Shown piece after piece: positions 14,808-40,827 of a DNA stretch of 46,974 bases. The stretch lies in IMG/VR virus record IMGVR_UViG_3300020595_000058, positions 1 through 46,974 of that record, one strand, 5' to 3'. Position numbers and translations under genes: made by a program. How positions within the stretch are numbered: position 1 is the first letter of the stretch; each line of letters starts with the position of its first letter. The notes under the pieces were generated by a model. The model ran no database searches. It saw only the letters and a program-made list of their open reading frames with translations, and had not been told where the DNA came from. This DNA comes from a virus.

Positions 14808-14826
14808 AGTGTTCTCCATTTAAGGT

Positions 14827-14922: not shown

Positions 14923-14934
14923 AGTGTTCTCCAT

Positions 14935-15207: not shown

Positions 15208-15231
15208 TGTGTTCTCCAATTCAGGTTTTAA

Positions 15232-15525: not shown

Positions 15526-15542
15526 TGTGTTCTCCATTTGGT

Positions 15543-15611
15543 TTATTTGTGTGTGTCGTAAGTAGCGATTAGTAGTAGGGCGATAAAGCCAAGTCCAACA
15601 AGTAATAACAT
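15543..15611 (-). CDS. Possible 22-aa single-TM peptide
   Basis: MLLLVGLGFIALLLIATYDTHK from ATG 15611, three bases after the stop of the upstream membrane gene. No strong ribosome site, so it would rely on coupling. The whole sequence is one TM helix. Tentative. Confidence 0.4.
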   Translation of the reverse strand: MLLLVGLGFIALLLIATYDTHK

Positions 15612-15613
15612 AA

Positions 15614-15865
15614 TTATGCTTTCTTAACTGTAGGGATTAGTTTGCCGAGTAGAGTAATCCACTCGATTAGGAATATTCCGATGATAGTTGCAACACCTAG
15701 TTTTGTGTCAGTGAGCATCATCATTATGCAACAGGGTATACCGATGATGATGTGTGGTCGGTGTAGTATGTCTGAGTTGATTACCCACTGTAACATGAAT
15801 GCAATGACTGTTCGTATGATAGCACCTGCGAATAGGGCAGTTAAAGCTGCTGTAAAGATTTCCAT
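15614..15865 (-). CDS. Multi-TM membrane protein, 83 aa
   Basis: The start is ATG 15865 (MEIFTAALTALFAGAIIR) behind GGAGAACACA. Three hydrophobic segments (about 3-27, 38-52, 57-76) and a basic C-terminus (VKKA). Two adjacent Cys lie in the middle helix. Probably an inner-membrane protein; no family recognised. Confidence 0.65.
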   Translation of the reverse strand: MEIFTAALTALFAGAIIRTVIAFMLQWVINSDILHRPHIIIGIPCCIMMMLTDTKLGVATIIGIFLIEWITLLGKLIPTVKKA

Positions 15866-15913
15866 TGTGTTCTCCATTTAGGTTGTGGGACAAAGCCCGT
15901 ACAATTGATATGG

Positions 15914-15938
15914 GAGTGCCATTACAGCACCCCCTGTT
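15914..15938 (-). other. Stem-loop after glycine-zipper gene
   Basis: The minus-strand RNA pairs GGGGGUGC with GCACUCCC around a seven-base loop, shortly after the stop at 15942. There is no U tract, so it may be a mRNA 3' stabiliser or weak attenuator. Confidence 0.45.
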
Positions 15939-15941
15939 GAT

Positions 15942-16292
15942 TTAGTCTCCCATTACTGCGCTAGTGACACAGGATGCGTAGTAGCCAGCAGTGCCGATGA
16001 CTGGTGCTACCAATACACTTGATGCGGCGATTGCGGGGAGGGTAGAGCCAGTGAGTATTGCGCCGGAAGTAGCGCCTGAGAGTCCCACTACACCAGCTGC
16101 ACCGACTAGCGGGGCTGCGGCAACTGTAGTGATTCCGATGACTACTGCTGAGACTGCGCCCACCCCGAAGCCAACGAATAAATCCGTAGTTGTACAGGTA
16201 GACTCGACAGGTGTGAGAGTGTATTGTACTTCGTCAGCTTGTGCGGTAGAGGCGAATAGTACTAGTGCGATTGTTGCGATGATATTTTTCAT
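15942..16292 (-). CDS. Secreted glycine-zipper protein, 116 aa
   Basis: The start is ATG 16292 (MKNIIATIALVLFASTAQA), giving a 19-residue Sec signal with an AQA cleavage site. The mature region contains Cys near 33 and 109 and a long Gly/Ala/Val stretch with GxxxG spacing (VGFGVGAVSAVVIG, VGAAGVVGLSGATSG), typical of glycine-zipper segments that pack in membranes or form oligomers. It may insert into the envelope from the periplasmic side. It heads a transcription unit with its own promoter-like element at 16316-16345. Confidence 0.65.
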   Translation of the reverse strand: MKNIIATIALVLFASTAQADEVQYTLTPVESTCTTTDLFVGFGVGAVSAVVIGITTVAAAPLVGAAGVVGLSGATSGAILTGSTLPAIAASSVLVAPVIGTAGYYASCVTSAVMGD

Positions 16293-16315
16293 TGTGTTCT
16301 CCATTTAGGTTTCTT

Positions 16316-16345
16316 CATTATAGAGGGGCAGTTTTCCCCACTTTT
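16316..16345 (-). promoter_or_regulatory. Hairpin-type promoter-like element, copy 2
   Basis: Minus strand AAAGTGGGGAAAACTGCCCC (a GGGG-7 nt-CCCC hairpin), then CTCTATAATGAAGAAAC. It is identical over 30 bp to the copy at 16731. It lies directly after the terminator at 16372-16397 and before the glycine-zipper gene. TATAAT fits a -10 box, but no -35 box is present. The ATAATGA end is shared with the 18-bp promoter family. Confidence 0.6.
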
Positions 16346-16709: not shown

Positions 16710-16730
16710 AGTAGCTCCTTGATGTTTCTT

Positions 16731-16760
16731 CATTATAGAGGGGCAGTTTTCCCCACTTTT
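16731..16760 (-). promoter_or_regulatory. Hairpin-type promoter-like element, copy 1
   Basis: Minus strand GGGG-AAAACTG-CCCC hairpin, then CTCTATAATGAAGAAAC. It follows the hairpin after the tape-measure gene (16783-16804) and precedes the HNH_3 gene, a terminator-promoter junction. It is identical to copy 2 over 30 bp although the downstream sequences diverge, which argues for selection on this element. Confidence 0.6.
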
Positions 16761-19800: not shown

Positions 19801-20684
19801 TCTTTTGCGTTTGATTCTACAATCAAGAAAGCCAACTGAGTGTTAAGAACAAATCTTTCTAGATTGTTTGATACAAAGTCGAATGCCTTGGTTATGCCAG
19901 AGATAGCACTACGAACAACACGAGACACACCGATAACTTTGTCAAACTCACTGACAGCGAGAGACATAGAGTCGCGCATAACCGTCATTAGCTGGTCTGT
20001 GGTAGCGTCCATCTTAGAGAAAGCTGCATCAACCCCTTCGGCACCTTTTGCAAAGGCATCAAAGATTCTTTGTGATGTAAGCTCGCCTTCAGCAGCCATA
20101 CCTTTTAGCTCACCAACACCTACACCGAATTCTTCAGCGATTAGTCGAGCAGCTACAACGTTGTTCTCTAGAACAGAGTTAAGTTCTTCACCACGTAGAG
20201 CGCCAGCAGCAAGACCCTGACCCAACTGGATAGCTGAGTTAGAAATCTCTTCAGCTGTAGCACCACCAACAGCACCCGCTTTAGCGAATGTTTCAGTGAA
20301 CTTCAAAATCTGTGGAGTTGTCTTATTAAGGTTTTCTAAGCTTAGTGAGAACCGCTGGAACGCTGTTACGTTGCCGCTCATAGAGGTTCTTGTACGCTTG
20401 GATATTTCTACAAGTTCTTTAAATGCCGCAGTCTGTTGTGTTGTGTTCTTAGTGACTGTAGCCAGTTTGTTGTTGAAGCTAGTAATAGCATCAGTAGCGC
20501 CAGTAATACCTTTGACAATTATCGCTGACCCGAAGGCAGCAGTAAGCCCGATGGCCATTTTCTGGAATGTCTTGGTAATATTGGCTGCTTGTGTTTCTAG
20601 GCTTTTTAGAGACTTGCCTGTCTTGCGTATTTCATTCTGGGCTTGCTTCGCATTAGCACGTACCCGAATCTCTACACCGCTCAT
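16815..20684 (-). CDS. Tail tape-measure protein
   Basis: 1289 aa. The N-terminus (VEIRVRANAKQAQNEIRKTGKSLKSLE) and the helical region to about residue 280 match the tape-measure N-terminal domain (GLAAGALRGEELNSVLENN). Long helices and hydrophobic Gly/Ala stretches follow (about 690-860). Two copies of the usual GG-x-DSVPAMLxxGEYV motif lie near residues 915-950 and 1230-1255, and a very Gly-rich segment lies near 1190-1220. The protein sets tail length and is ejected at infection. At about 1.5 angstrom per residue it implies a tail near 190 nm, an estimate only. It starts at ATG 20684 with GGAG six bases upstream. Confidence 0.92.
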   Translation of the reverse strand: MSGVEIRVRANAKQAQNEIRKTGKSLKSLETQAANITKTFQKMAIGLTAAFGSAIIVKGITGATDAITSFNNKLATVTKNTTQQTAAFKELVEISKRTRTSMSGNVTAFQRFSLSLENLNKTTPQILKFTETFAKAGAVGGATAEEISNSAIQLGQGLAAGALRGEELNSVLENNVVAARLIAEEFGVGVGELKGMAAEGELTSQRIFDAFAKGAEGVDAAFSKMDATTDQLMTVMRDSMSLAVSEFDKVIGVSRVVRSAISGITKAFDFVSNNLERFVLNTQLAFLIVESNAKDFFHGLLDLFSLDFDASGLGERLGKSISTALKTVKDFGAQKVTIALNFAVEKYDLLSKMFPSGVEGIYGTLQTFATNIVNIFKGLWKAVVGNSWWTGIFDPSHEEGGAAAIGNVGAMGVHLEAAKRKLLRWKDNLVALFKTLQTDALSYWTQLQTDLTQDGFSVVASERIFQPLKTGFDNVIATLSTSWDNFTTSTIGSKLNLSTTADMEQTWNTSLDTMKASYDKLTTIISGLPLVVAAKVAFQATAENFKEIINDVKSFFKDNEAELSSVIAFGMAAAFNKGLRGAAMRVAIPAGILAAVGGLGNNQDFLAAVGKTAKDFGTTFRNLMTGDGDVVANILEGLGNVFKEVGTSFIDGIFGEDFESKFANNAASAIAAGLVALILAPKLTKGAFKFALALGKLLGGKALITGFGAAAATSMSTGILELRTNPKTANAASKLGKALGKTAGAAMSGLVAQQLSDALIPDESLNGIGEALDGAIGGAALGAQLGLAVGGPLGAAIGTAGGFLLGGLLDVLNNPELMQKIKDMFFGAIDTFKTFVLTLPSTIGNAMKDGFSMAWDFLAGKLKSISSFFSSGEDTGALSGIGYNQYAQQTGETDVEYLERAKNFATGGYVSGAGTGTSDDIPAMLSNGEYVIKASAVSKLGKNKLDLLNQGVLPKFAKGGLVGTAQQEIRDSFSRGDTKLALEIISVQERLGKLDETMSGLTEAQQENVKALVEEDKSNKAKKLRLEGIDDLEANFNATLSGAISAVLHGGDWKDVLGSLLDTVTSSIINNFSDGLAEGLTQNLDFGKLFDFNQGTNEAGEKSGGFLQGLFGGGKEGEAAGEDKSTKAMSGVFDGAKEWMGGLFGEGGSISGIFSGFSGGLSSIFGSLGSSLSGIMGGIGGLFGGGGGGGFLSGIGSFLGFSQGGIVPNIPGSQAGKDSVPAMLMPGEVVLSKNDVSRMNNNGSGRSTQSFNINVQGDVSRQTRQEIVKMMPQIAGGVNMQNKENNYKR

Positions 20685-20704
20685 ATGATTCTCCTTATTT
20701 AAAT

Positions 20705-20753
20705 AAAAAAGCCCCCAACAGTTAATCCCGCATATTGGGATACCATCAGGGGC
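20705..20753 (-). terminator. Bipartite terminator or attenuator upstream of tape measure
   Basis: The minus-strand RNA pairs GCCCC with GGGGGC around an inner AUCCC/GGGAU stem, then has six U. It lies between the HK97-gp10-like gene and the tape-measure start, so it probably lowers transcription of tape measure relative to the head and tube genes. Confidence 0.75.
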
Positions 20754-20759
20754 AATTTA

Positions 20760-21089
20760 TTAGTTAGGCGTAATTAGTCCGATTCGTGAAAGCGTCTGTT
20801 CAATGAAGTACGATGGCGCTTGTTGTGAGTGTCCTTTATTGAGCCTGTCAATATATTCCACTTCGTTATAGATAGTAGCACCTATAAAAGAATTACGAAA
20901 GTTTGTGTGAATGGTTCTTCTCCATCCATCACGAGCATTACCTTCATCTACAGGTGTTACTACTCTTAGTTGTTGTGTACCGTACTCTACTAGTGCGGAT
21001 ATCTCTAAGTTAGCTATGTCAGAGATTTCATCTTCAATCCTCTGCATCTCACGCTCAAAGTTTACTATCTCCAAAGATATCTTTGTCAT
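20760..21089 (-). CDS. HK97 gp10-like tail completion protein
   Basis: 109 aa from ATG 21089 (MTKISLEIVNFEREMQ), which overlaps the stop of the chaperone frame as ATGA; a TTG five codons earlier is possible. The pattern VVTPVDEGNARDGW...IYNEVEYIDRLNKGHSQQAP..FIEQ fits the HK97 gp10 / neck family of head-tail or tail-completion proteins. In most siphoviruses this gene sits before the tube gene, so its location after the chaperone is slightly unusual. Confidence 0.7.
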   Translation of the reverse strand: MTKISLEIVNFEREMQRIEDEISDIANLEISALVEYGTQQLRVVTPVDEGNARDGWRRTIHTNFRNSFIGATIYNEVEYIDRLNKGHSQQAPSYFIEQTLSRIGLITPN

Positions 21090-21723
21090 TGCTTTTTCAT
21101 CCAAGGTGGGGTCCAGTCCTCACCATCGCCGCCCTTAGCCTTGAGCATCATGTCAAGGAATTTACCTTTGGGCAGTGATATGGTAGCAGCTGGAATGTTA
21201 TCCTTAATCTGCTTAAGGGTGTGGAAGACATCCTCCGGTTTACCTTTATACCCCTGTGCTTGTAACAAGACAGACGCACGTTGGTCATCACGCCAACCAT
21301 AAGGTCTGCGCTGGAAGTATTGTCCCCACTTAGTGAGTTCTATTTGCGGCATCTCAGCTAATAGCTGGTATACAGGCATCCCTAACAAGAAAGCAATTTC
21401 ATACAAATTCTCTTCGGAATGAGTTAGTTTCCCTCAGAGCCACCAAGGCCGGATAGGCGCATAATGTGCTCAGAAAGCCCCGTCAATTCTTCGACTGGGA
21501 ATGTTTCAAAATCTGCATCGGTAAGTTCATCTGCCCCGATAACGGCAATTTTAATGATGTCACAAAGGAGTTTAAGTTGAGCGCCGTCTTTCTTAGACTT
21601 GGTCGCTGCTTCGATAGTCTTCTGTAGGCCCATGACCTCACCAACTGTCAACTTCTTTACTTCTACTTTGTCACCCATAAAGTCTACTTTTTCTGTGACT
21701 GCTTTTCCAACGAGATGTTTCAT
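21086..21723 (-). CDS. Tail assembly chaperone G-T fusion (by -1 frameshift)
   Basis: A programmed -1 shift at the GGGAAAC heptamer (21427-21433) would join the 99-codon first frame to the 106-codon second frame, giving about 212 aa. The junction reads ...GSEGKLTHSEENLYEIAF. The second frame is open upstream through the slippery site, has no ATG and no ribosome site, and carries the T-domain pattern LYEIAFLLGMPVYQLLAEMPQIELTKWGQYF. In lambda-like phages the G-T fusion recruits the tail tube protein to the tape measure. The order chaperone, completion protein, tape measure fits this. Confidence 0.8.
21424..21723 (-). CDS. Tail assembly chaperone G-like protein
   Basis: 99 aa (MKHLVGKAVTEKVDFMGDKVEVKKL...), the unshifted product. 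The family pattern is VEVKKLTVGEVMGLQ and the C-terminal VEELTGLSEHIMRLSGLGG. It ends just after the slippery site, so most ribosomes stop here and only a fraction make the G-T fusion. The product coats the tape measure during tail assembly and is not expected in the virion. Confidence 0.78.
   Translation of the reverse strand: MKHLVGKAVTEKVDFMGDKVEVKKLTVGEVMGLQKTIEAATKSKKDGAQLKLLCDIIKIAVIGADELTDADFETFPVEELTGLSEHIMRLSGLGGSEGN
21427..21433 (-). promoter_or_regulatory. Slippery heptamer GGGAAAC for -1 frameshift
   Basis: In the zero frame it reads G-GGA-AAC-TAA, the canonical X-XXY-YYZ register, placed one codon before the stop of the first chaperone frame. Slippage yields GGG-AAA and enters the downstream frame, which stays open to 21086. 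Confidence 0.8.
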
Positions 21724-21734
21724 TGTTTTAATCC

Positions 21735-21971
21735 TTAATCTAATTTATCTTTTTCTGAGAATAGGTCAGAGTTGTTTGCTTGAAAGTCATCCAATAACTT
21801 GCGGACAGTGTGCAGTACAGAAAGGGTTTCCATAATCTCACGGCCAACAGCTGACTCATTATCAAAGTCTTGGAATCGTTCAAATGATTTTCGAATACTA
21901 ATATCTACGCTTCTACGCATATGACGGAAGGTCGTACGCATAACAAACGCTTTACTAAATGGTTTGTCCAT
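21735..21971 (-). CDS. Hypothetical tail-region protein, 78 aa
   Basis: The start is ATG 21971 (MDKPFSKAFVMRTTFRHMRR) with AAGGAAG upstream. Basic N-terminal half and helical C-terminal half ending EKDKLD. It lies between the tail tube gene and the chaperone. No family recognised; possibly a tail assembly helper. Confidence 0.65.
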   Translation of the reverse strand: MDKPFSKAFVMRTTFRHMRRSVDISIRKSFERFQDFDNESAVGREIMETLSVLHTVRKLLDDFQANNSDLFSEKDKLD

Positions 21972-21994
21972 GTATAATACTTCCTTGTGCCGGA

Positions 21995-22012
21995 GACCAC
22001 CCGAAGGTGGCC
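21995..22012 (-). other. UUCG hairpin after tail tube gene
   Basis: The minus-strand RNA forms GGCCACC-UUCG-GGUGGUC, starting 12 nt after the tail tube stop, without a U tract. Likely protects or attenuates the message downstream of a gene that must be abundant. Confidence 0.6.
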
Positions 22013-22023
22013 CCCTAAATAGC

Positions 22024-22554
22024 TTAGATTGTTGCTGGACCGAAGAAATCGGACTGAGCAGACAAAGTAACAGTTGCAGTAGTTGCATCTGTCAAAGCTG
22101 GGTTTACAAGGATAGCTTCAATCTTACCCAAGAAATAGAACTCTGTGTTCTCTGGAGTAAGTGTTGCAGCTGCAGCTTCGTCTTCAGTAACTGCAGAAGC
22201 AGCCATCATGAAGCGGAATACACAGTTAGTACCAATAAGGTCGTGAATAGCTGTCATGTCGCCAGCAACGTAGTTCACTGTTACTTCCAAAGATGGAGCG
22301 TCAGCTTGACCCTGAACCTGTGAAGAAGTCTTTTGACCGTAAACAGGAACGTTAACGATGTTTGCAGGTGTACCCACTGAAGGGAATTCACGTACAGAAG
22401 GCATACGAACGTGGTCTGCATCTGCAGTACCCGGTGTTGTACCTACGAACAGTGCAGCAGCTTCAGCAGCTGTGTCTGTGCTGGCAGGAATCGTGCCTGT
22501 GAAAATGTCTAGGTAGGTAAAGATACCTGCGCCTAGTGATGAGATGTGTGCCAT
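22024..22554 (-). CDS. Major tail tube protein
   Basis: 176 aa, beta-rich and Ala/Thr-rich (MAHISSLGAGIFTYLDIFTG ... VTLSAQSDFFGPATI). Its place directly after the connector genes and before the chaperone is that of the tail tube subunit. The segment PSLEVTVNYVAGD..AIHDLIG resembles tube proteins of siphoviruses. It has a clear GGAGAA site and a hairpin after its stop. Confidence 0.75.
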   Translation of the reverse strand: MAHISSLGAGIFTYLDIFTGTIPASTDTAAEAAALFVGTTPGTADADHVRMPSVREFPSVGTPANIVNVPVYGQKTSSQVQGQADAPSLEVTVNYVAGDMTAIHDLIGTNCVFRFMMAASAVTEDEAAAATLTPENTEFYFLGKIEAILVNPALTDATTATVTLSAQSDFFGPATI

Positions 22555-22557
22555 TTG

Positions 22558-22962
22558 TTATTCTCCGTATTTGGTAAATGGAATTATATAGGATGCACTC
22601 GAAAGTGCTTTGTTCATGGGGTCTAAACCCTCTACAGTTAAGTAAGAAGTTCCAAGCTTTGTACCGTTTGGTAGTGTTTTGTTGTCCAGAACGATGTCAA
22701 GTAAGTCGGCCATAGCCATAAGTCTTCCTTGACCTTCACCACTCTTGGCAAACAATTTTACTGCTATTAGTCCTGTGGACTCTTTCTTTACTCCATACGC
22801 ATAATTCCTGCTACCGGAAGGTAACAAAGAAACCATTGCATATTCACCAGAGTCACCCCCCTTACAACCTGCATAATCTACAGGGTAAGTCGGGATGTCA
22901 TTGGCGGTCCAAGTGGCTGAAGCGAAAACACCTTCTATATCTCTAAGTACTAAGGCATACAT
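22558..22962 (-). CDS. Tail terminator-like protein
   Basis: 134 aa. The position between head-closure and tube genes, and the pattern LVLRDIEGVF...VDYAGC...GLIAVKLFAKSGEGQGRLMAMADLLD, fit the gpU / minor tail terminator family that caps the tube and joins it to the head. An AAAGGAGG site precedes ATG 22962, which overlaps the previous stop. Confidence 0.65.
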   Translation of the reverse strand: MYALVLRDIEGVFASATWTANDIPTYPVDYAGCKGGDSGEYAMVSLLPSGSRNYAYGVKKESTGLIAVKLFAKSGEGQGRLMAMADLLDIVLDNKTLPNGTKLGTSYLTVEGLDPMNKALSSASYIIPFTKYGE

Positions 22963-23300
22963 TAACAGCCTCCTTTCGCTAAGTCTAGGGTTATTACAAA
23001 CCCGTCATCAGTAAAGGAAGAGATGTTGTATACATCAGTACCTATGGTTAAAGTATCGTAACCACCTATTGCCGTACCAGACTTCATCATTGCTTTCGCA
23101 GAGGATGATTCTCCTGTTGGCTTAGTTGTAGATTCGAGTACTACTTTAACTTTTATAGAAGAAGTTGTTGTTGTGAGACTGCCAGAGGCAAAATCAAAAC
23201 CGCTTGAGGTATTCTTAGATAGAGTTGCAGAGACTACAAGGTCTCCGATAGCATTAAAAGCTTTGTCTACTGCAGCTTTAACTTTAGCTCGCATTGACAT
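22962..23300 (-). CDS. Head-closure or connector protein
   Basis: 112 aa, starting MSMRAKVKAAVDKAFNAIGDLV, then a Ser/Thr-rich beta domain. Its position and size fit a head-tail stopper; the sequence match is weak. Overlaps both neighbours by one base. Confidence 0.55.
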   Translation of the reverse strand: MSMRAKVKAAVDKAFNAIGDLVVSATLSKNTSSGFDFASGSLTTTTSSIKVKVVLESTTKPTGESSSAKAMMKSGTAIGGYDTLTIGTDVYNISSFTDDGFVITLDLAKGGC

Positions 23301-23806
23301 TAGTTAGACCTCCACCAGTTAGCACCTATACCTTGACCACCGTTTCTCAACAGAGGACGTATAGACTTAGATGCCTGTACTGATTTCATTGGAGTTCTTT
23401 GAACGTCATTGTTGCTATCTGATATACTGATAGAGCCTACGCTGATACTCTCAAAGGTTTGAGTAGCACCAGTTAGTAGGTCTTCGTTGTTTACCAGATG
23501 TAAAGCTTGCTCATAGACAGCAACTTTAACACGACTTGGAACCTCCGTAATAGCGAATGTAATTACCATACCTAAACGGTTATCAGTATACATTGCGTTA
23601 TTACGGGGCCAAGCCAAAGCTTGAGAGGAACTAACAGCAGAACCAATCCAAGAATTGTCATCAATCATAGCAGTGGCTGTGACAAGTGCTTGTTCTTTGA
23701 TTTCGTCTTCAGCGTCAACCCAGTTGGCACTATCAATACGAGTCTCAAAGTATGTATCAGCGTCTGCTATCAAAACGTAGCTGTTTGTATTGAGTACAAG
23801 TGCCAT
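23300..23806 (-). CDS. Head-tail adaptor (DnaT-like ssDNA-bp family)
   Basis: 168 aa. The pattern SYVLIADADTYFETRIDSANWVDAEDEIKEQALVTAT...ALAWPRNN fits the phage family labelled DnaT-like single-stranded-DNA-binding protein, whose members are in practice head-tail adaptors next to the capsid gene. The C-terminus is basic (GIGANWWRSN). It follows the major capsid gene with a 21-nt gap. Confidence 0.7.
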   Translation of the reverse strand: MALVLNTNSYVLIADADTYFETRIDSANWVDAEDEIKEQALVTATAMIDDNSWIGSAVSSSQALAWPRNNAMYTDNRLGMVITFAITEVPSRVKVAVYEQALHLVNNEDLLTGATQTFESISVGSISISDSNNDVQRTPMKSVQASKSIRPLLRNGGQGIGANWWRSN

Positions 23807-23827
23807 TAGTTCACTCTCCTATCTAAT

Positions 23828-24946
23828 TTAAGCGTGGAAGATAGGCAAGATGCCCAAGTTCAATGCGTCCATTTTACGGTCATAAGAAGCAGCTGCACCC
23901 ATAGTCGCGTTAGTAGCGAATGTGTTTGTAGCGCCTGCCCAGTCGTAACCCATTGGGTGGTTGATGAAGCCCCAACGGTACCATACGTTTGTTGAACCAC
24001 CACCGAGGTAGGACGCAGCAGCGCGGTCTACTTCAACTGGAGTTGGCATGTTGATTGCAGTTGCAGCAACAGAACCCGGCTTAACAATGAAAGTACACTT
24101 AGAAGAAGCACCGTTCAAATCGCCAGCTGTGAAGCCAGAAATCATTTGGTTTGCACGAGTCATAACCAAGCGGAATTTGCCACCGAAGATTGTTGAGAAC
24201 TCAAGGTTGCCATCAGTAACCATAGTTTCGTCAACTAGGTTAGCAGCACGCATTTCAGCCATCACTTCAGGAGAAGTAACCATGTACATGAAATCAGGCT
24301 CGTGGTCTTTGAATGTAGCGCCGATAGATTTGAACAAACGCTCACCACGGGCTGCGCCCATAGCAGAAGAGTCGAACAATTTACGAGCGTCAGAAGCACC
24401 AGTTGCAGCAGCGCCGTGAAGGCCAGCAGCGTTGATGTCACAGAAGAAGCCAGTTGCAGCTACGTCACAGTCAGTATCATAATCGATAACACCACCGTTA
24501 CCAGCACCAGCTAGGTCGCCAAGAGCAACTTCGCTCAATGCTACACCTTTAAGAACTGACAATAGAGCGTCATGCTCGTCTTGTGCACGTACTTCAGCGA
24601 AGTCACGAGCGATTTTAGCTAGACCGTCTTGCTTAGAGACAACTTCTTGCATGTTAACTTGCTCTGCACCGAAAGTGCGAACAGTCTTAACGAAGTTAGC
24701 AACGTCTGTTGCGATGTCAGTGTAAGTACCGTCAGTTGATGAAGACAAAGAAGCAACGTTTACGTTTGCTGACAAAGGCTTGTACCAGCGGAATTGACCT
24801 ACGAAAGATTCGCCTGAAGCGTCGATGCGCTGGTCAGCAGCTACGATGCCTGTGCCGTTTAGTTTCTTAGCAGTTGAATAAGCTTCATCTGAGTAAGCAG
24901 AGATTGCAAGAGCAATGTTCTGGAAGTCTGTGTTTGTAATAGCCAT
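23828..24946 (-). CDS. Major capsid protein
   Basis: 372 aa, placed between scaffold and adaptor genes. The sequence (AITNTDFQNIALAISAYSDEAYSTAKKLNG ... MGAARGERLFKSIGATFKD) and size fit a capsid shell subunit, probably HK97 fold. There is no separate protease motif. The ATG has an AAAGGAA site. The calm codon use and preference for GCA/GCT alanine suggest high expression. No direct family name is certain; the assignment rests on context and composition. Confidence 0.82.
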   Translation of the reverse strand: MAITNTDFQNIALAISAYSDEAYSTAKKLNGTGIVAADQRIDASGESFVGQFRWYKPLSANVNVASLSSSTDGTYTDIATDVANFVKTVRTFGAEQVNMQEVVSKQDGLAKIARDFAEVRAQDEHDALLSVLKGVALSEVALGDLAGAGNGGVIDYDTDCDVAATGFFCDINAAGLHGAAATGASDARKLFDSSAMGAARGERLFKSIGATFKDHEPDFMYMVTSPEVMAEMRAANLVDETMVTDGNLEFSTIFGGKFRLVMTRANQMISGFTAGDLNGASSKCTFIVKPGSVAATAINMPTPVEVDRAAASYLGGGSTNVWYRWGFINHPMGYDWAGATNTFATNATMGAAASYDRKMDALNLGILPIFHA

Positions 24947-24982
24947 TGTGTAATTCCTTTATAGCTTTATAGTAGTAATAGA

Positions 24983-25651
24983 TTATAGGTTGAAGTTACC
25001 TAGTTTACCTTTGGCGGCAAGAGCTAGAATTTCTTGAGTTGACATTTCGCCGATAGACTTTGAAACATCGGTTGAAGGCGCTCCAGCTGGATTGCCTGTA
25101 CCTGCTCCTGTGTTAGACTTAACACGGAATAGGAATGAGTTATCTTCGGACTTAGCATAAGCTTCGACGTAGTCACGAATATTTGAACCTGTGGAGTGCA
25201 CCCACGCACCCTCTTCATTTTGAACCAATTGGTCAACGATTTCTCTGCGAGCCATGTCGCGAGACTTTTCGCTGCGGAATTCCATGCCAGCAAGTGCATC
25301 ATTCAATACACCATCACGCTTAAGCTTAGTTGTCTCAGTTGCGTAGACATCTAGTTTAGCACGAGCTTCGGCAAGTTCCATTTCAAGAGCTTCTTGGACT
25401 TTACCCTCTTCTTTCATGCGAGCAATAGTTGCTTCCTTTGCGGTAGCTTCCATCTCTGCTTTAAGTTTGAGAGCTTCGTCACGCTCACTGACCATACGGT
25501 CCATGTTAGCTTTCATCTTGGCTAAACGTTCTTCAACGATTGCTTCGACGTCATCAACAGGGGCTTCTGGAGCAGCTGGTGTTTCTAGTGTTTCTTCTTC
25601 AACAACAGGTTCTTCAGTTGTTTCTACTTCTTCGATAATGTTATCGCTCAT
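24983..25651 (-). CDS. Capsid scaffolding protein
   Basis: 222 aa from ATG 25651 (MSDNIIEEVETTEEPVVEE), behind GAAAGGAAAT. The N-terminal 40 residues are very acidic and Pro-rich, then a long coiled coil (about 45-125, ERLAKMKANMDRMVSERDEALKLKAE), and a flexible C-terminus with GAGTGNPAGAP ending in a hydrophobic helix. This is the form of phage scaffolds, which guide capsid assembly and leave before DNA packaging. It lies directly before the capsid gene. Confidence 0.85.
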   Translation of the reverse strand: MSDNIIEEVETTEEPVVEEETLETPAAPEAPVDDVEAIVEERLAKMKANMDRMVSERDEALKLKAEMEATAKEATIARMKEEGKVQEALEMELAEARAKLDVYATETTKLKRDGVLNDALAGMEFRSEKSRDMARREIVDQLVQNEEGAWVHSTGSNIRDYVEAYAKSEDNSFLFRVKSNTGAGTGNPAGAPSTDVSKSIGEMSTQEILALAAKGKLGNFNL

Positions 25652-25696
25652 GTTATTTCCTTTCAAGCACAGCTTGGGTTGATTTATGTTTATAAT

Positions 25697-25747: not shown

Positions 25748-28700
25748 TTATGGGCCAATTCCATACCAGTCATTGCCTGGACGGATTTTCTCTAGCACTT
25801 CAGAAGGAGTAATCTTATCCTTTGGATTGATTAAGCCATCGTCTTTTGCTCGTTGTAAGTACTTATTGTATGTCGCTCTTGACATACCTGACTTTCGCAT
25901 TTCTTTGAGAGTCTTATGAATGGTTCCTTCTTTTAGCGCATCTGAGTAGATTTGCCGAAGTGCCCATTTAGCGGGGACCGCCTTTCCTAGGTTAGTGAAG
26001 AAAGCATCGTGGATAGTTCCAGTGGCTACTTTATTCTTCTTTCCCCATAGGTGGAATTTTCTGACCAACACAGCGTCATTACTGTGGTTGCCATTAACAC
26101 CGAGGCCAATAGACGCATCTTGTATAGATGCCTGTGACATTAACTTGCCATCTTTAGCTTGACCTTCATAAATATTGAAGACTTTTTCGCCCGTTACAGG
26201 GTCGGTGAAGTCTACTCTTACTTGTTCTTTAACACGGTAACGTTGCATCATAACTTTGGAATCGAAAGTCACCCAAGGGATGTCTACAGAACCAGACTCT
26301 TTTACATAGTCTTTAGCAATGTCTTTCCAGAACCTAATGAACTTACCTGTTACAGGAACTTCTTTTTCGAGTTGACGCGACATAATACCAGAAATCTTAT
26401 CGAACAAACGAGTACCTACAAGGTTCCCCGTCTCATCAGTAAGCTTCATTAAAAATGTATGCATCTCTTCGGAATTCTTTACACCGTCTCTAAACTCTGA
26501 CCTTGCAGTCTGATATAGTGAGTCAGTGATGGATGAACCTTCTTTAGAAGATAACACCACTTTTCTTTTAAGGTCACGTAATTCATCAATACGCGCCCAA
26601 TTCTTTCTGTCCATTTCGAAGCTAATCTTAGCATCAATAGCGGTTTTAAACTTGTCAACCTCTTTAGTAGAGATGGCAATCTTACCCTTCTTAGCTAGAA
26701 CCTTGGCGAATTGGTTAGCTACGTTAGCAGCTTTAGTCGCATCACCCGCACCATAGAAAGCAACCATGTTTTGATTCTTAGCAGCTTTCATAAGGTCAGT
26801 CCAGTCTAAGTCTAACTCTGCCAATTCAGGTATAGCTAAAAACTCAGGGTCGTCAACAGTACGTTTAGCAATCTCATCGTAGAGTCTTTGCTTCTTAGAT
26901 GTCTGAAGAACATTAGAAAGTTCAGCAGCAGCACGGTCTCCCGTTGATAGTGAAATGATTTGTGCTCCAGAGGAACTAGCATCATTCTCAATCATCATCT
27001 TAGTTTTGTATTGTCCTATAAGTTTAATATCTGCACTTGTCCACTTAGTTTTATCGGTTAACATCCTGCCGCCCATGTGCCTGTGTATACGAGTATACTC
27101 CAAAGCTAGACGAGCTAGTTTACCAATCTCTTTGTCTTCTGTAGCAGCAACAAGAGGGTTGGATAAGAACTCTTTAATACGTCTGTCAGGCTGTGTAGGG
27201 TTCAACATAGCTCCACCAATCTCAAGAAGATTCTTTTCTTGGTCTTTGAAAGCTTGTAGACGGCCTTTGAGAGTTAGTGTATCAAGAGGACTGCCAACTA
27301 AGGCACCGATTTGTACTTGTAGTTCTTCTAGTGCATCGATATTGATTGCTTCTGCCTTGGCTGTGTTTAAGAACGGACGAACTGCTTCACCCTTAGTTGG
27401 TGTCAGTAGGCCACGGTGATAAACACGTCCACGGAAGTCGATTGAAGCGTCAACAGAGAAGGCTTGATTACGTTGTCTGTAAAACTTGGCTGTAGCTAAA
27501 ACACCACGACCATCGTTCCCACGACCCATAAACAGTTTCTTCCACTCATTAGCATCATCCCATTTCTTAGCTTCACCACGTTTGTCATTAAAGTAAATAA
27601 CACGTTCAGCAAAGTCAAAGAACTCATTGTCTACCTCATACTTAGCAGAGGTAGCATGGTTGAGCATTGAAGTTATATCGTTATCAATTTGATTAGCATC
27701 GTAGTCAGCATAAACCTTTTCAGAAACTACAGGCATCCCAGTCTTACGACCACGAGCATCATAGTATTCTTTAGAACCTGCACGAGCATAGACCTTATCA
27801 CGGTTATTGTAAACACCAAAACGACGGCTTGTACGGGCTTTCTCAGCAGAAATTTGTAATTGACGCATAGGTCCGTTTACTATCTGGATTTGACGTGTAA
27901 CATTCACACCACGAAGCCCAGCATCACTCACAGGTCTACCTGTAGCAAGGTCTTTAGGTGAAGATGTACCAATGTCTCTGATAACTGTAGTACGAATCAT
28001 ACCCTGTTTTTCTATAGAAGCAATAATACGACTACCATCCTTGTGGAAGTCTTTTAGAGTCTTAGAACGTAGTGGGTTGAGTGAACCAAGTTCATCATCA
28101 AACATCTGACCAATCTTAATAGCCAACATATCGTAGTCAGCGCCATCAGCTGTAGCAATAGCCTTCATAGCTTTAGAAGTTGCTTTGATAGTTTTGTTTC
28201 TTAGGTTAGCTGTAGCTTTGTCACGTTGACGTAAGAACAAAAACTCACGGTCCAAGAACTCACGCTGTGTACCACGTAGTTTATCAATCTGCATCTTTAA
28301 CCAAGAGTCTTTCGGAGGCTTCTTCTTAAACAAGGCTCTGAACTTCTTCTGAAGTTTGTAGCCTGGAATGTTATTTAGAACCTTCTCAGTCATCTCTTTA
28401 CGGCTAGGATAACGTCGGATAATACTTTGTGTATAAGCTGAAATTGGGCTTTTACCGCTGTAGTAAGCTTTCTTAGCTAGCTTAGAGCCGTATAGACCTT
28501 CCCAAGTATCAATGTAGCGGTTATCAGCAATCTGACCATCAATCAACTCAGAGATAGTATACTTCTTATTGAAGATATAAACCGCTGGGTCATCATCTAG
28601 TTTAGCTGTAAGAGAACCAAAGAGTTTACCTCTGTCAGCACTACGGTTAAAAGAGAGTGTACCTAAGTCTTGTACAGCATTAATTGTGAACTTACGCATA

Positions 28701-30187
28701 ACAGAAGTAGGTTTAGCCCACGCTTCACCTGTAGCATTAGCACGGGTAAAGGTTTGACGCATAACATCTGTTACAACAACACGTTGGTTAATAGAAACAT
28801 CACGACTAAGGTCTTTTACGAACTTATTAATGTAAGTCTTTTGCTTGCTAGTTAGGTCAGGGCTATCCATGACTTTAGCAATACGTTCCTGTAGAATCTC
28901 AGCTTCCTGAACTTGTAGGTGACGACCAGCGCCACTTGTATAGTCAGCGCCTTCAGCATTCATAACAGCACCTTCACGGTTGTTCTTGAATGCCCTACGG
29001 CTAGCTTGCTTCTGTGATAGGGAGTTACCTTTGAAATCAGCTAGAGCTAACGCCTGGGCGTTCTCTGCAGCATCATTCTTAAAGTGTGCCCTAAGAGCAG
29101 CAGTGTGTGCCTTTGAAGCCATTAGCTCAGTAGGTGTACCAAACTCTAAATCAATGTTACTGTCGTTCTTAGCTGTAGGACGTTTAACAGTCTTGTTAGC
29201 TCTGCGCATTAAACCAGTAAGAGATAGAGCTTTACCTACAGGAGAAACAAACTCAGAGGCAGTAAGTCTACCTTGTTGGAACAGGCTTGCTTGACGTTCG
29301 CCACCCAGCATCTTGACTTGAACAGCAGTACCTTGCTTACGTAACCAATCAGAATAGCTTTTAACTTTTGAAGGTTCACCAGTAAGCTGTGCAGCACTTG
29401 TGTTCTGAAGATTTCTAGGCTTAATGTTCTTAGACTTTAGCTTTAGAAGTTCTTCTTTGTCCTTAACAACTGGCACCATAGTAGAGCGACATTGCCAGTG
29501 TAACGGGGGCTGATAACGCTTGTCATCAACACTATAAACTTGACCATTGTGGAAAGAACAAATAGGACTAGTACGACCATCTAGGATAGCTGTAAACATG
29601 TAGCCCTTGAGGACTTCCTTGTTAGCTTCCATGACTTGATTCATAGCATCTGTTTGTGTTCGAGTAATAGAAGTACGAGCTAGAGACTTAGCTTGATGCT
29701 CTGTTATCTTCGTAGTCTTCATTACGTCTTTTATAATTTCGTCATTGGTTAGACCTTTAGCAAGGCCACCTTTAACTTTAGTTTGAATACGTACCAGCTC
29801 ACCAGAAGCAATGTTAGACAAGTTACCATTGATTGTACGGGTGCCTTTAATGTTAGGACCAGTAATCTCAGAGAGAACCGACTTAGTTGATGGTTTTTGG
29901 GTACGATAGAATTTCTTAATTTCAGCATCAAGGTTATTCTTGTGGAATACCTTCTGTGCTGTGGAGAAGCCCGTTAGACTCTTCGTCAACGAGTTTTTCA
30001 TTTCTTTACCGAAACGAGTAACCTCTGGCTTGACGTTGGCTCGGATGTTCTCCTTCAGGATACCTTTAAGGTTGGTCCTGTGTTTCTTAATAATAGCTCT
30101 TTGGGCTTTTTGTTGCCCGTTTTCATATAACCTAACATCGCCAGAATGGTCAATGATGCGGTCAAAAATCTTTTCGTTAATAGACAT
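25748..30187 (-). CDS. MuF head-morphogenesis / single-subunit RNA polymerase fusion (candidate virion RNAP)
   Basis: 1479 aa from ATG 30187 (MSINEKIFDR), behind GGAGA; an ATG four codons earlier is inside the ribosome site. Residues about 95-245 are a MuF domain: KSLARTSITRTQTDAMN, then ILDGRTSPICSFHNGQVY with C210, and PPLHWQCRS with C233. The C-terminal half carries all RNAP core motifs: IDFRGRVYHRG (D917), motif A D1069 (NDASSSGAQ), motif B K1137...Y1145-G1146 (KNQNMVAFYGAG) and motif C H1393-D1394 (GTIHDAFF). No stop or frameshift separates the parts. MuF proteins enter the capsid beside the portal, so the polymerase is probably packaged and ejected with DNA. Residues 250-800 are not recognised and may bind promoters. 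Confidence 0.9.
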   Translation of the reverse strand: MSINEKIFDRIIDHSGDVRLYENGQQKAQRAIIKKHRTNLKGILKENIRANVKPEVTRFGKEMKNSLTKSLTGFSTAQKVFHKNNLDAEIKKFYRTQKPSTKSVLSEITGPNIKGTRTINGNLSNIASGELVRIQTKVKGGLAKGLTNDEIIKDVMKTTKITEHQAKSLARTSITRTQTDAMNQVMEANKEVLKGYMFTAILDGRTSPICSFHNGQVYSVDDKRYQPPLHWQCRSTMVPVVKDKEELLKLKSKNIKPRNLQNTSAAQLTGEPSKVKSYSDWLRKQGTAVQVKMLGGERQASLFQQGRLTASEFVSPVGKALSLTGLMRRANKTVKRPTAKNDSNIDLEFGTPTELMASKAHTAALRAHFKNDAAENAQALALADFKGNSLSQKQASRRAFKNNREGAVMNAEGADYTSGAGRHLQVQEAEILQERIAKVMDSPDLTSKQKTYINKFVKDLSRDVSINQRVVVTDVMRQTFTRANATGEAWAKPTSVMRKFTINAVQDLGTLSFNRSADRGKLFGSLTAKLDDDPAVYIFNKKYTISELIDGQIADNRYIDTWEGLYGSKLAKKAYYSGKSPISAYTQSIIRRYPSRKEMTEKVLNNIPGYKLQKKFRALFKKKPPKDSWLKMQIDKLRGTQREFLDREFLFLRQRDKATANLRNKTIKATSKAMKAIATADGADYDMLAIKIGQMFDDELGSLNPLRSKTLKDFHKDGSRIIASIEKQGMIRTTVIRDIGTSSPKDLATGRPVSDAGLRGVNVTRQIQIVNGPMRQLQISAEKARTSRRFGVYNNRDKVYARAGSKEYYDARGRKTGMPVVSEKVYADYDANQIDNDITSMLNHATSAKYEVDNEFFDFAERVIYFNDKRGEAKKWDDANEWKKLFMGRGNDGRGVLATAKFYRQRNQAFSVDASIDFRGRVYHRGLLTPTKGEAVRPFLNTAKAEAINIDALEELQVQIGALVGSPLDTLTLKGRLQAFKDQEKNLLEIGGAMLNPTQPDRRIKEFLSNPLVAATEDKEIGKLARLALEYTRIHRHMGGRMLTDKTKWTSADIKLIGQYKTKMMIENDASSSGAQIISLSTGDRAAAELSNVLQTSKKQRLYDEIAKRTVDDPEFLAIPELAELDLDWTDLMKAAKNQNMVAFYGAGDATKAANVANQFAKVLAKKGKIAISTKEVDKFKTAIDAKISFEMDRKNWARIDELRDLKRKVVLSSKEGSSITDSLYQTARSEFRDGVKNSEEMHTFLMKLTDETGNLVGTRLFDKISGIMSRQLEKEVPVTGKFIRFWKDIAKDYVKESGSVDIPWVTFDSKVMMQRYRVKEQVRVDFTDPVTGEKVFNIYEGQAKDGKLMSQASIQDASIGLGVNGNHSNDAVLVRKFHLWGKKNKVATGTIHDAFFTNLGKAVPAKWALRQIYSDALKEGTIHKTLKEMRKSGMSRATYNKYLQRAKDDGLINPKDKITPSEVLEKIRPGNDWYGIGP

Positions 30188-30225
30188 CAGTCTCTCCATT
30201 ACTATACTTCGTGGATATGTGGGAA

Positions 30226-30258: not shown

Positions 30259-30344
30259 TGGTAGCCAATCGGAGACTTGAACTCCTTCTACTCGTGCCAT
30301 GACGCCTGAGATGGCGGTGAGTAGCTACGAACCTGCTTTGGCTA
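30259..30344 (-). ncRNA. tRNA-like element ending in CCA, overlapping portal stop
   Basis: The minus strand begins UAGCCAA and ends UUGGCUA-CCA, a 7-bp acceptor-like helix with an encoded CCA. A T-arm GGAG-UUCAAGU-CUCC is present. In place of normal D and anticodon arms there is a long two-part helix, CUACUC...GAGUAG enclosing GCCAU...AUGGC with a ten-base loop. A standard seven-base anticodon loop cannot be drawn. It is therefore either a decayed tRNA or a deliberate tRNA mimic, in outline like the tRNA part of tmRNA. The portal UAG stop is the first three bases of the acceptor strand. Confidence 0.55.
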
Positions 30345-31916
30345 TTCTTCCTCTAAGTTGACTTGGTCATCTGAGAGTTCAGGGTTAGCCACTAACGGGT
30401 CAGTCTGAATCGCTTGAATAGCTTCTTCATCGTTATAGTCAGCAGGTAAGAAGTCGTTGAACTTAGCAATAGTGACAAAGGTCTCACGGGAAATAATACC
30501 GCTCTGATACCATTCAGCGACAAGACGCATAGAGCCTTCTCCGCCAACTGTAGCAGCAAAGTCTGAAGACAGGGTAAACTCAATGTCGTTACCTGTAAAC
30601 TCTGCGTCATACTTCCAGTTCAACATGAAAGCGATTACCTCTTGCATAGTGCCGGAAATCTTAGCGTTCAATGTACCCAGTTGAGCTGTCTGAGAAGCGT
30701 TACGAATCTCTAGAGCAACACCTGAAGCGGCTTGTTCTGGAGACAACATACGGATACCCATCTTAGCCATTTCTGCGACTGTAGCTTCAATAGCACGGTC
30801 CATGTCTGCCAAAGCACCAGTAGGTGTTTCTAGAACAGTAATAGACTCATCTTTGCGAACACGAAGCCAAGTACCGAGACCAGCGTTAACTAGCTCTTCA
30901 AACTCTTCATCTGTCATGTCAGACTGAACAACAGGTGTATAAGTAGCAGCACCCATTAGCAGGTGGTTACGACGAGATACTTTGTTGTATAGTGCTACTT
31001 CACGGTCAATGAGTGGCATAAGTACAGGCTCAATAGGGTCGAGCTGACCATTCAAAGGCCAGGCTGGAATACGAGTCAACCGCTCACCAAACTTCATTGG
31101 GTAAACAGTGTCATAGAGCTTGAAACCACCATCAGCAGAATCTTCATACTCTTGTGAGATAGTACCGTTAAGAGCTTCTACTTCGTGTGAACCGTGGGCC
31201 TTGCGGTAGTAGTCAAGAACCAACAAACCTTGTTCATCAAGGTAGTGGTCACAAACAGTATCTACGTAGCTAGGGTGCCAAGGGTTGTCTTGAGTGTATT
31301 CTTCAGTTATAAAACGAGTAACCCAACGACTCAGTGACTTAACACGAGTTACAGGGTGAGTCTTCACTTGTACGTTAATAACATTCTCAGCCTTCATCAA
31401 AACAGGATAAGGAGAGATAGTGTCACGTTCTTCTGGTGCCATCATCTCTAATTCATCATCTGAGACTGTTGGACGGTCAATGTAGACCCAAGCACGAGAA
31501 GTTTGTAGTTCTTCCCAGATAGCAGCATCCAAGAAGTTGAACATAGATGAACCATCTAGTGTCATATCTTTCGTCAACCAATCATAAGCATCTTGACCTA
31601 ACATATCAGGTAGTTCAAGTTGTGATGGTTTGCGTAGTAAAGCACTAATCAACACACGAGCATACTGGGTTGTTAGACCTGGTAGTTCTGCTTCTGACTT
31701 GTAGAAGTCATACTGTTGTTGTGACATACTAGGGGAGAAAGGCAATAGCAAGTTAGAGTAATCAGTCTCTATAAACTCATCATGTGCCTTGGCATGGGCT
31801 TCGCCTTGTAGAACAGAACGAGCCTTCTTCCATAGTGGTTTTAGTGACATGTAGGAAGCACTAGGTGTTTCGACACCACGCTTCTGGGTATTAGCAGCTG
31901 TTTTAACTAGCGACAT
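30342..31916 (-). CDS. Portal protein (DUF4055-type)
   Basis: 524 aa from ATG 31916 (MSLVKTAANTQKRG), six bases after GAGGTG; an in-frame GTG three codons earlier overlaps that site. Features typical of DUF4055 portals are seen: YARVLISALLRKPSQLELPD, IDREVALYNKVSRRNHLLMGAATYTPV and a C-terminal acidic tail. The portal forms the ring at one capsid vertex, the docking point for packaging and for the MuF protein encoded next. The head module is driven by the promoter at 32062-32079. Confidence 0.85.
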   Translation of the reverse strand: MSLVKTAANTQKRGVETPSASYMSLKPLWKKARSVLQGEAHAKAHDEFIETDYSNLLLPFSPSMSQQQYDFYKSEAELPGLTTQYARVLISALLRKPSQLELPDMLGQDAYDWLTKDMTLDGSSMFNFLDAAIWEELQTSRAWVYIDRPTVSDDELEMMAPEERDTISPYPVLMKAENVINVQVKTHPVTRVKSLSRWVTRFITEEYTQDNPWHPSYVDTVCDHYLDEQGLLVLDYYRKAHGSHEVEALNGTISQEYEDSADGGFKLYDTVYPMKFGERLTRIPAWPLNGQLDPIEPVLMPLIDREVALYNKVSRRNHLLMGAATYTPVVQSDMTDEEFEELVNAGLGTWLRVRKDESITVLETPTGALADMDRAIEATVAEMAKMGIRMLSPEQAASGVALEIRNASQTAQLGTLNAKISGTMQEVIAFMLNWKYDAEFTGNDIEFTLSSDFAATVGGEGSMRLVAEWYQSGIISRETFVTIAKFNDFLPADYNDEEAIQAIQTDPLVANPELSDDQVNLEEE

Positions 31917-32061
31917 ATGTTTCACCTCATTAAGTAGTTAATCAGGCATTATGCCTTTATGTTGTTGTTGTATAGTTATTATATTAAAACATACCCAATA
32001 ACAAAGGTGTCTTAAGATATACTTAAATATAATTATAGTTATATTATAGGGAGACTGGGGT
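31917..32061 (-). promoter_or_regulatory. AT-rich leader of portal transcript
   Basis: A leader of about 145 nt after promoter 32062-32079. The RNA would start with a GAC-CCCA-GUC hairpin, then an AT-rich inverted repeat AATATAA-CTATAA-TTATATT, and a GGCAT-A-ATGCC palindrome just before the portal start. The AT-rich stretch could also serve in replication; nothing else is seen in it. Confidence 0.4.
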
Positions 32062-32079
32062 CATTATTCCGCCCTATTA
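32062..32079 (-). promoter_or_regulatory. Phage-type promoter copy 3, before portal
   Basis: Minus strand TAATAGGGCGGAATAATG, in the only long untranslated gap of the virion genes, 146 nt before the portal start. It is one of two copies in this gap. It probably drives portal, MuF-RNAP, scaffold and capsid genes. Confidence 0.75.
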
Positions 32080-32165: not shown

Positions 32166-32172
32166 TTATTAT

Positions 32173-32190
32173 CATTATTCCGCCCTATTT
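32173..32190 (-). promoter_or_regulatory. Phage-type promoter copy 4, after endolysin
   Basis: Minus strand AAATAGGGCGGAATAATG, identical to copy 2, two bases after the endolysin stop codon. The presumed RNA starts GAUAAUAAGAGGAC and runs into the hairpins at 32136 and 32101, 111 bp upstream of the next copy. Tandem copies may strengthen head-gene expression. Confidence 0.75.
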
Positions 32191-40086: not shown

Positions 40087-40827
40087 TTACATTTGTTCTT
40101 CGATGAACAACCGTACTAGGTCAGCAACAATGTCACTGCGTACGATGTCTTCTACACCGAATTGGATAACTGGTAACTCAATACCAGCATTATTTACTTT
40201 CCTAGCAAACTTAACAAGGTCATCCCCATTACGCACATCAGATTGTGCCGGGTCTCCCATTAGTACTAGTTTAGTATTCTCACCAATACGGGTTGTAATG
40301 GCTTTAATTTCGTCCATGTTAAGGTTCTGAGCTTCATCTACTAGAACAAGAGCATCCTCGTAAGAACGTCCTCGAATAGTTTCGATAGGTTGAATCTCAA
40401 TCTCACCTTTACTTAGCATGTACTCATATTTACCCTTACCGAAAGCCTTTGATAAGACTTCTAGCATAGGCATTAACCAAGGTGTCATCTTCTCTTCAAC
40501 AGTTCCTGGGAAGTGTCCTAAGGACTTTCCGGTAGGAACGTTTGCACGAGTTAACACAATTTTCTTATACTTACCCTTCATAAATAGTTGGGCTACAGTT
40601 CCTGCACTACAATAAGTCTTTCCTGTCCCTGCACACCCCATAGTTACCGTGATAGCACACTCTTTGATTGCGTTAATCAAATCATCTTGCTTTTCATTCT
40701 TTGGTAAGATATGGAAGTTACGTGTAGGGAAGCGATGAACGTTGTTCTTACGCCCATGTTCGTCACGCATATACTTAGGCATACGTGCGTTTTTCTTTGC
40801 GGAATAGCTTGATTGTTTCTTGGACAT
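40087..40827 (-). CDS. PhoH-like ATPase
   Basis: 246 aa. Walker A GCAGTGKT spans residues 64-71, Walker B LVLVDEAQN lies near 165, and LVLMGDPAQ (sensor I) near 190, as in the PhoH family of P-loop ATPases. Phage PhoH proteins are very common in marine phages; their function is unsettled and proposed to concern RNA or phosphate metabolism. The gene is the first after the strong promoter at 41047-41075 and lies upstream of the tail genes rather than in the replication block. An AAGGAA site precedes ATG 40827. Confidence 0.9.
   Translation of the reverse strand: MSKKQSSYSAKKNARMPKYMRDEHGRKNNVHRFPTRNFHILPKNEKQDDLINAIKECAITVTMGCAGTGKTYCSAGTVAQLFMKGKYKKIVLTRANVPTGKSLGHFPGTVEEKMTPWLMPMLEVLSKAFGKGKYEYMLSKGEIEIQPIETIRGRSYEDALVLVDEAQNLNMDEIKAITTRIGENTKLVLMGDPAQSDVRNGDDLVKFARKVNNAGIELPVIQFGVEDIVRSDIVADLVRLFIEEQM

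Follow-up and report, generated by a model that had tools for sequence, protein, structure and literature searches.

The stretch of DNA analysed here, referred to as the window, is the whole of IMG/VR virus record IMGVR_UViG_3300020595_000058 (46,974 bp), which is probably a fragment. Between its portal and scaffolding protein genes, a single continuous minus-strand frame encodes a protein in which an N-terminal MuF head domain is joined to a T7-type single-subunit RNA polymerase (RNAP). Such a fusion had been proposed in an initial annotation, and it is borne out by sequence profiles, by the predicted structure and by its persistence across 85 distinct sequences. The most likely reason for placing an RNAP on a portal-associated head protein is that the particle imports the enzyme to switch on the first viral genes. 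Drawing on sequence, predicted structure and analogy with known phages, we put at roughly three in four the probability that the protein is a virion-packaged RNAP, delivered by the portal-docked head protein, that reads early genes from a promoter-like motif (motif E) described below.

The open reading frame (ORF) spans 1483 amino acids, and translation probably starts at M5 (position 30187), since the homologues agree from there onwards (MSINEKIF or MDINQKIF), giving 1479 amino acids. Residue numbers follow the 1483-residue ORF and are four higher than those of the initial annotation, which counted from M5. A plus-strand reading of the locus was rejected, as that strand has many stops at 25748–30187. 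The Phage_Mu_F profile scores 59.3 bits against a curated cut-off of 29.6, and the PF04233 match lies within the N-terminal 245 residues to which a MuF pattern had been assigned. The PHROG head morphogenesis family phrog_241 also matches (E = 4e-53), with the match extending to residue 407. For the polymerase, PF00940 (RNA_pol) matches residues 1062–1439 above its curated cut-off (E = 5.8e-6), and the PHROG RNA polymerase family phrog_414 gives E = 3e-22. All five further full-length members scanned pass both Pfam cut-offs.

We modelled residues 430–1483 with AlphaFold2, using an alignment with 57 homologues. The model has a predicted local distance difference test (pLDDT) score of 83.7 and a predicted template modelling (pTM) score of 0.79, with lower confidence in the RNAP N-terminal domain than in the rest. 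Its best Foldseek matches in the PDB are T7 RNAP (E = 5.8e-20) and mitochondrial RNAPs, in keeping with the palm-type fold that the initial annotation had expected. VIA aligned the model to T7 RNAP with Z = 26.3, placing model positions 119–1052 on T7 residues 38–882 (root mean square deviation 9.7 over 630 residues). By this prediction, the polymerase is a T7-sized enzyme of residues ~547–1481 and the middle of the protein is mostly its N-terminal domain. The enzyme had been located in the C-terminal 570 residues, where it is indeed found but with a larger predicted extent, and the ~550 middle residues thought to lack a match belong mostly to the predicted RNAP.

Profile searches with the fusion polymerase also rank T7 RNAP first. 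Compared profile to profile with T7-type RNAPs, it aligns collinearly between DxRGR and HD, specificity-loop region included (98.5% probability, E = 3.9e-15); a single collinear alignment pairs D1073 and D1398 with T7 D537 and D812. VIA Z scores are 20–26 for T7 and mitochondrial RNAPs, 20.0 for the N4 RNAPII subunit and 14.1 for the N4 mini-virion RNAP (mini-vRNAP), and on this structural difference (Z of 26 against 14) the N4 virion RNAP (vRNAP) lineage was rejected. Judged by its modelled fold, the fusion polymerase is T7-like in lineage. In a tree, which was consulted solely on whether the fusions group together and in which their deeper placement is unsure, the fusion polymerases form one clade (support 100/99) on a long branch, with N4 vRNAP on a very long branch. 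At the opposite end of the protein, confidence in the fold is high over most of residues 1–330, and pLDDT falls below 50 at 338–347 and 408–425. A PDB fold search with a model of residues 1–700, the C-terminal part of which was poor, gave no match, and the MuF assignment therefore rests on sequence profiles.

The catalytic motifs were compared across 85 distinct full-length fusions including the window, which remained of 102 complete frames (~1440–1600 amino acids) after duplicate removal. Identity to the window falls as low as 28%, yet C214, the PPxH motif and CR of the MuF domain are invariant in all 85, as are D921, R923, R925, Y927, D1073, K1141, Y1149, G1150, H1372, D1375, H1397 and D1398 of the polymerase. 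In 49 of them, DxRGR has A or V in place of its G. The motifs are found at the positions given by the initial annotation (in the 1479-residue numbering, DFRGR at 917, D1069, K1137, Y1145 and H1393–D1394). Its claim of every core motif of T7-family RNAPs holds for DxRGR, motif A, the lysine and tyrosine of motif B, and motif C, but fails for the motif-B arginine, T7 R627. At this position, 48 of the fusions have Arg, 21 Met (window included) and 13 Ala. We still treat the fusion polymerase as a diverged member of the T7-type family, since the Arg persists in the majority of its own clade and no other feature of sequence or fold is lacking. Motif B was misplaced relative to T7 by MAFFT in the tree alignment and left unaligned by hhalign; its call is based on the K-x3-M-x3-YG spacing, its position in a predicted helix and its invariance.

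In three lineages, the fusion gene is broken by a group I intron at or next to residue 1146, inside motif B between NMV and xFYG (Table 1). Group I introns typically occupy highly conserved functional motifs, and their presence at the same catalytic-motif place in three lineages gives independent support for motif B as a functional polymerase motif. The intron of EBPR siphovirus 1 falls under the Rfam gathering score, yet reaches E = 1e-8 in a search of that stretch; the deposit annotates its two exons (gp47 and gp49) and the endonuclease as three genes. An intein was suspected in G020 from a continuous frame and was rejected, because the sequence there is interrupted by stops and holds a group I intron as well as an HNH-like open frame.

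The search for other MuF–RNAP fusions that the initial annotation had called for yielded the 85 distinct proteins above. Successive IMG/VR scans for relatives returned 34, then 362, then at least 543 stretches (overlapping sets), and among siphophages in metagenomes the fusion appears to be common. A full-length homologue (44% identity) annotated ‘minor head protein-like protein’ is present in the roseophages DSS3_VP1 and DSS3_PM1, while that of EBPR siphovirus 1 spans the full length in three pieces. Of 84,980 species genomes of bacteria and archaea, a single Gammaproteobacteria metagenome-assembled genome matched, which argues against common prophages; one of its hits lies on a 74-kb contig of the same size as IMG/VR viral contig L099, and the two are 100% identical in the match. 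No split MuF/RNAP version was found among the fusion homologues, bar the introns and one contig (L130) in which the frame is shorter, apparently through a frameshift. Pelagibacter phage Kolga, by sequence comparison, represents the unfused state: its MuF protein (~633 amino acids) is matched only over residues 5–330, and its RNAP is separate. A link of the fusion to deoxyuridine (dU)-containing DNA, DSS3_VP1 being a dU phage, was also considered; a dCMP-deaminase family gene occurs in just 2 of 12 relatives, and dU thus does not explain the fusion in general.

The gene has a fixed neighbourhood. At all 57 loci with enough upstream DNA, the fusion is preceded by a portal gene in the same orientation (within 400 nucleotides (nt) at 42 of them), and a capsid gene lies within 2.5 kb downstream at all 60 loci with enough downstream DNA. 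The flanking portal and scaffold genes reported by the initial annotation are confirmed by profile in the window, and synteny in DSS3_VP1 is the same. A second, stand-alone T7-like RNAP (RNAP2) is encoded in 16 of 18 larger records, the exceptions being a 34.7-kb fragment and EBPR siphovirus 1. A transfer RNA (tRNA) gene was seen near the fusion start in DSS3_VP1 (L037 21063–21138, between portal and fusion) and in L228 (5717–5788, minus strand); before the fusion in the window none was detected, a degenerate candidate there not being confirmed by Rfam. In two distant relatives, G011 (C1:40438–42273) and G015 (C1:18123–20177), the RNAP2 gene appears to be split about midway along the RNA_pol profile by ~600–1000 nt, which may be another intron or intein.

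Two classes of promoter-like motif were found. Motif E (consensus CMTCTATAAYGAAGAAAC, often with AAAAAGTGRGR ahead) precedes the early genes and RNAP2. It occurs four times in the window, three times each in the genomes G001, G002 and G007, and two to three times in DSS3_VP1, where 0.05–0.1 copies are expected, and nearly all copies lie 1–7 kb upstream of RNAP2. The long form was found in 26 stretches among 2.9 million viral contigs, all beside a relative of the window’s tape measure gene, and every one of these contigs of at least 30 kb also carries the fusion. An N4-type hairpin promoter was rejected for motif E because the hairpin, clear in the window copy only, is not conserved in the DSS3_VP1, G001 or G002 copies. 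Motif L is of a different, RNAP2-type class that resembles T7-type promoters and varies between lineages, with four copies of AATAGGGCGGAATAATGA in the window (two just before the portal gene), five copies in G001 and ~15 copies of ATAGGNTRCGTTAAAGAG in DSS3_VP1 (three just before the portal gene). In these three genomes, RNAP2-type motifs stand directly before the portal–fusion operon.

A comparison of specificity loops and motifs in five mutually related genomes favours motif E as the promoter of the fusion and motif L as that of RNAP2, because the conservation of each motif follows the specificity loop of that polymerase. For the fusion, the loop of the window is 67.5% identical to that of DSS3_VP1 (core, 49%) and 70% identical to that of G007 (core, 47%), and motif E is kept where this loop is conserved, with three mismatches in G007. 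For RNAP2 the order is reversed, with the loop below the core in identity (42.5 against 51% in DSS3_VP1, 37.5 against 56% in G007 and 27.5 against 58% in G002), and motif L changes alongside.

In the scheme that we propose, RNAP2 would transcribe the portal, fusion, scaffold and capsid genes from motif L in the late phase. The MuF domain would dock on the portal as does the MuF protein SPP1 gp7, few copies of which are targeted by the portal to the procapsid interior (PMC6316719), so that the head would hold few polymerase copies. At infection, the fusion protein would exit with the DNA, and its C-terminal T7-type RNAP would transcribe the early operon, including the RNAP2 gene, from motif E; RNAP2 would then transcribe the middle and late genes, the fusion itself included. 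Two independent lines, the constant head-module placement and the RNAP2-type (late) motifs before the operon, support packaging, which would occur through the MuF–portal link as the initial annotation proposed. If the placement of motif L means late expression, an early function would need carriage in the virion. We infer that the enzyme is N4-like in role and T7-like in lineage.

Several observations weigh against a packaged early polymerase. A folded polymerase would have to pass the long siphophage tail unfolded, and EBPR siphovirus 1 carries the fusion with no RNAP2 detected. The T7-type motif-B arginine is Met in the window and Met or Ala in its nearer relatives, which lowers our confidence in normal catalysis. 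Motif E was not found in two genomes of a distant fusion-bearing clade (G013 and G014), where a de novo motif search of intergenic regions returned a repeated RNAP2-like motif, ACCCCGTTAAATTAACCC, probably the RNAP2 promoter of these genomes, and no clear early class. Motif E also includes TATAAT and could therefore be read by the host RNAP, and the window has a perfect sigma-70 promoter (TTGACA-N17-TATAAT at 41047–41075, minus strand, upstream of a PhoH-like gene at 40087–40827) and an 11/12 sigma-70 match at 11130–11157, ~80 nt before RNAP2. RNAPs are known to pull in the T7 and N4 genomes, and with these two near-perfect promoters the enzyme might be injected mainly for transcription-coupled DNA internalisation, leaving the early promoters to the host RNAP. 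We consider this unlikely, as motif E is long, specific and conserved well past the -10 element without a TTGACA-type -35, is conserved together with the fusion specificity loop, and strong sigma-70 sites (11/12) were not seen in G001, G007 or DSS3_VP1.

The position of the gene in a late operon would also suit an RNAP half that acts as a late polymerase in the cell producing the particles, or that is cut from MuF, with no delivery; the low-confidence linkers in the AlphaFold prediction are possible cleavage places. Late promoters are, however, already within the reach of RNAP2, and the fused frame is kept throughout the 85 distinct sequences, making this very unlikely. A polymerase fold that has lost catalysis and serves the head as a structural or DNA-binding module is hardly credible: the motif-B arginine is lost in the nearer clade and the MuF protein SPP1 gp7 is a DNA-binding protein by the title of a work cited in PMC6316719, but both catalytic aspartates, the motif-B lysine and tyrosine, HSxD and DxRxR persist without change at all levels of divergence. 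An assembly artefact or chance fusion is refuted by the homologues, which are full-length, 91–28% identical, and drawn from many samples and from the isolates DSS3_VP1 and DSS3_PM1. A virion-packaged polymerase remains our preferred reading.

Virion RNAPs fused to other proteins are known from N4 (gp50), crAss-like phages (giant proteins) and P23-45 (tape measure) (PMC10770324). N4 gp50 (Schitoviridae) is a 3500-amino-acid protein of podoviruses that uses hairpin promoters (PMC4496689), and N4-like virion RNAPs are stated to occur only in N4-like phages or prophages (PMC5512222). The fusion resembles gp50 as a single-subunit RNAP in a large virion-module protein, with a second phage RNAP for later genes, but has DxRGR rather than TxxGR, is nearer to T7 and mitochondrial RNAPs, and its motif E lacks a conserved hairpin. 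The P23-45 virion RNAP (gp96) is likewise fused to a structural protein of a siphophage and transcribes the gene of a second, non-virion RNAP from an early promoter class (PMC10770324); in contrast, gp96 is a two-barrel RNAP of unrelated fold and is carried by the tail tape measure rather than by a head protein bound to the portal. Autographiviridae T7-like RNAPs and RNAP2 share the fold, motif order, HSxD...HD and specificity-loop region, whereas they are free enzymes and the fusions form their own well supported, long-branched clade.

MuF proteins such as SPP1 gp7, Mu gpF and the MuF polymorphic toxins share the arrangement of an N-terminal MuF beside the portal with a C-terminal enzyme thought to be injected (PMC5576092, PMC5512222). 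The known passengers are toxins, ADP-ribosyltransferases (ARTs), nucleases, (p)ppGpp synthetases and others, mostly in temperate phages, with no mention of an RNAP in the passages found. The homologue in DSS3_VP1 (Naomviridae) and DSS3_PM1 is annotated as minor head or head morphogenesis only, and its record does not name the RNAP half. The top-ranked entry in BFVD (A0A7S5FRK7, 1463 amino acids, matching the DSS3_VP1 protein in size) carries no name. No description of a MuF–RNAP fusion was found in the literature, most subscription papers and the first description of the DSS3_VP1 genome being outside the search.

If the proposed role is true, phages would have one more, independent means of taking a polymerase along in the virion, here a T7-class enzyme mounted on a head–portal protein, and MuF passengers would extend from toxins and modifiers to a transcription engine. 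It would pose the problem of how so large a folded enzyme leaves through the tail of a siphophage, and would offer testable early promoters and a diverged RNAP family as a source of new promoter specificities; the isolates DSS3_VP1 and DSS3_PM1 make tests feasible. We hold in even balance the broader proposal that these phages are a large unrecognised siphophage group in control of its own transcription from the start of infection. Here MuF would have captured a T7-type RNAP in an event separate from those behind the virion RNAPs of N4, crAss-like phages and P23-45, and the enzyme would be ejected, read motif E as a dedicated early promoter class and make RNAP2, which in turn would make the fusion.

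Table 1. Features of the window and, in the last three rows, introns of related fusion genes
Feature	Coordinates	Strand	Evidence or remark
MuF–RNAP fusion gene	25748-30199	minus	ORF 1483 amino acids; likely start M5
MuF (Phage_Mu_F) domain, residues 138-241	29477-29788	minus	PF04233 E = 7.3e-16; 5.0e-19 in genome search
MuF extension and flexible linker, residues ~242-430	28911-29476	minus	phrog_241 match; AlphaFold low-pLDDT segments
Predicted T7-type single-subunit RNAP, residues ~547-1483	25751-28561	minus	AlphaFold, Foldseek, VIA
DxRGR motif (DFRGR, residues 921-925)	27425-27439	minus	D, R, R invariant 85/85; aligned to T7 D421
Motif A (ENDASSSG; D1073 = T7 D537)	26966-26989	minus	invariance and alignment to T7
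Motif B helix (K1141, Y1149, G1150; M1137 at R627 position)	26750-26791	minus	relatives have group I intron in codon 1146
Specificity-loop region, residues 1307-1346	26162-26281	minus	profile comparison with T7 specificity-loop region
HSND (1372-1375) and motif C (H1397-D1398)	25997-26086	minus	aligned to T7 HSQD...HD
Portal protein gene, upstream of fusion	30342-31925	minus	phrog_145 E = 1.3e-46, DUF4055
Scaffolding protein gene, downstream of fusion	24983-25666	minus	phrog_206 E = 2.4e-10
Major capsid protein gene	23828-24946	minus	phrog_247 E = 7.3e-26
RNAP2 gene, 747 amino acids	8831-11074	minus	PF00940 E = 1.2e-81, phrog_414 E = 7e-126
Motif E (early promoter-like), copy 1	16724-16741	minus	0 mismatches to CMTCTATAAYGAAGAAAC; just after tape measure gene
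Motif E, copy 2	16309-16326	minus	0 mismatches
Motif E, copy 3	13184-13201	minus	1 mismatch
Motif E, copy 4	12215-12232	minus	2 mismatches
Motif L (RNAP2-type promoter-like), copy 1	32172-32189	minus	0 mismatches to AATAGGGCGGAATAATGA; upstream of portal
Motif L, copy 2	32061-32078	minus	0 mismatches; upstream of portal
Motif L, copy 3	8623-8640	minus	0 mismatches
Motif L, copy 4	673-690	minus	1 mismatch
Group I intron locus, EBPR siphovirus 1 (L038, JF412302.1)	20055-25428		HNH gene by Pfam
Group I intron, IMGVR_UViG_3300037344_000012 (L020/L073)	L020 11438-12302		HNH gene by Pfam
Group I intron, IMGVR_UViG_3300025671_000082 (L228)	1806-2160	minus	HNH-like frame

Among the genes near the motif E copies, several small early genes at 14820–16310 (minus strand) have a near-identical leader, AAATGGAGAACACnATG, ahead of their start codons, by its sequence a repeated ribosome-binding leader. 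A collagen-repeat protein (PF01391, E = 3e-14) is encoded at 12251–13159 (minus strand), just downstream of a motif E copy. The product of 2287–2790 (minus strand) is a possible anti-restriction protein, resembling the S-adenosylmethionine lyase family weakly and below the cut-off (E = 2.5e-5).

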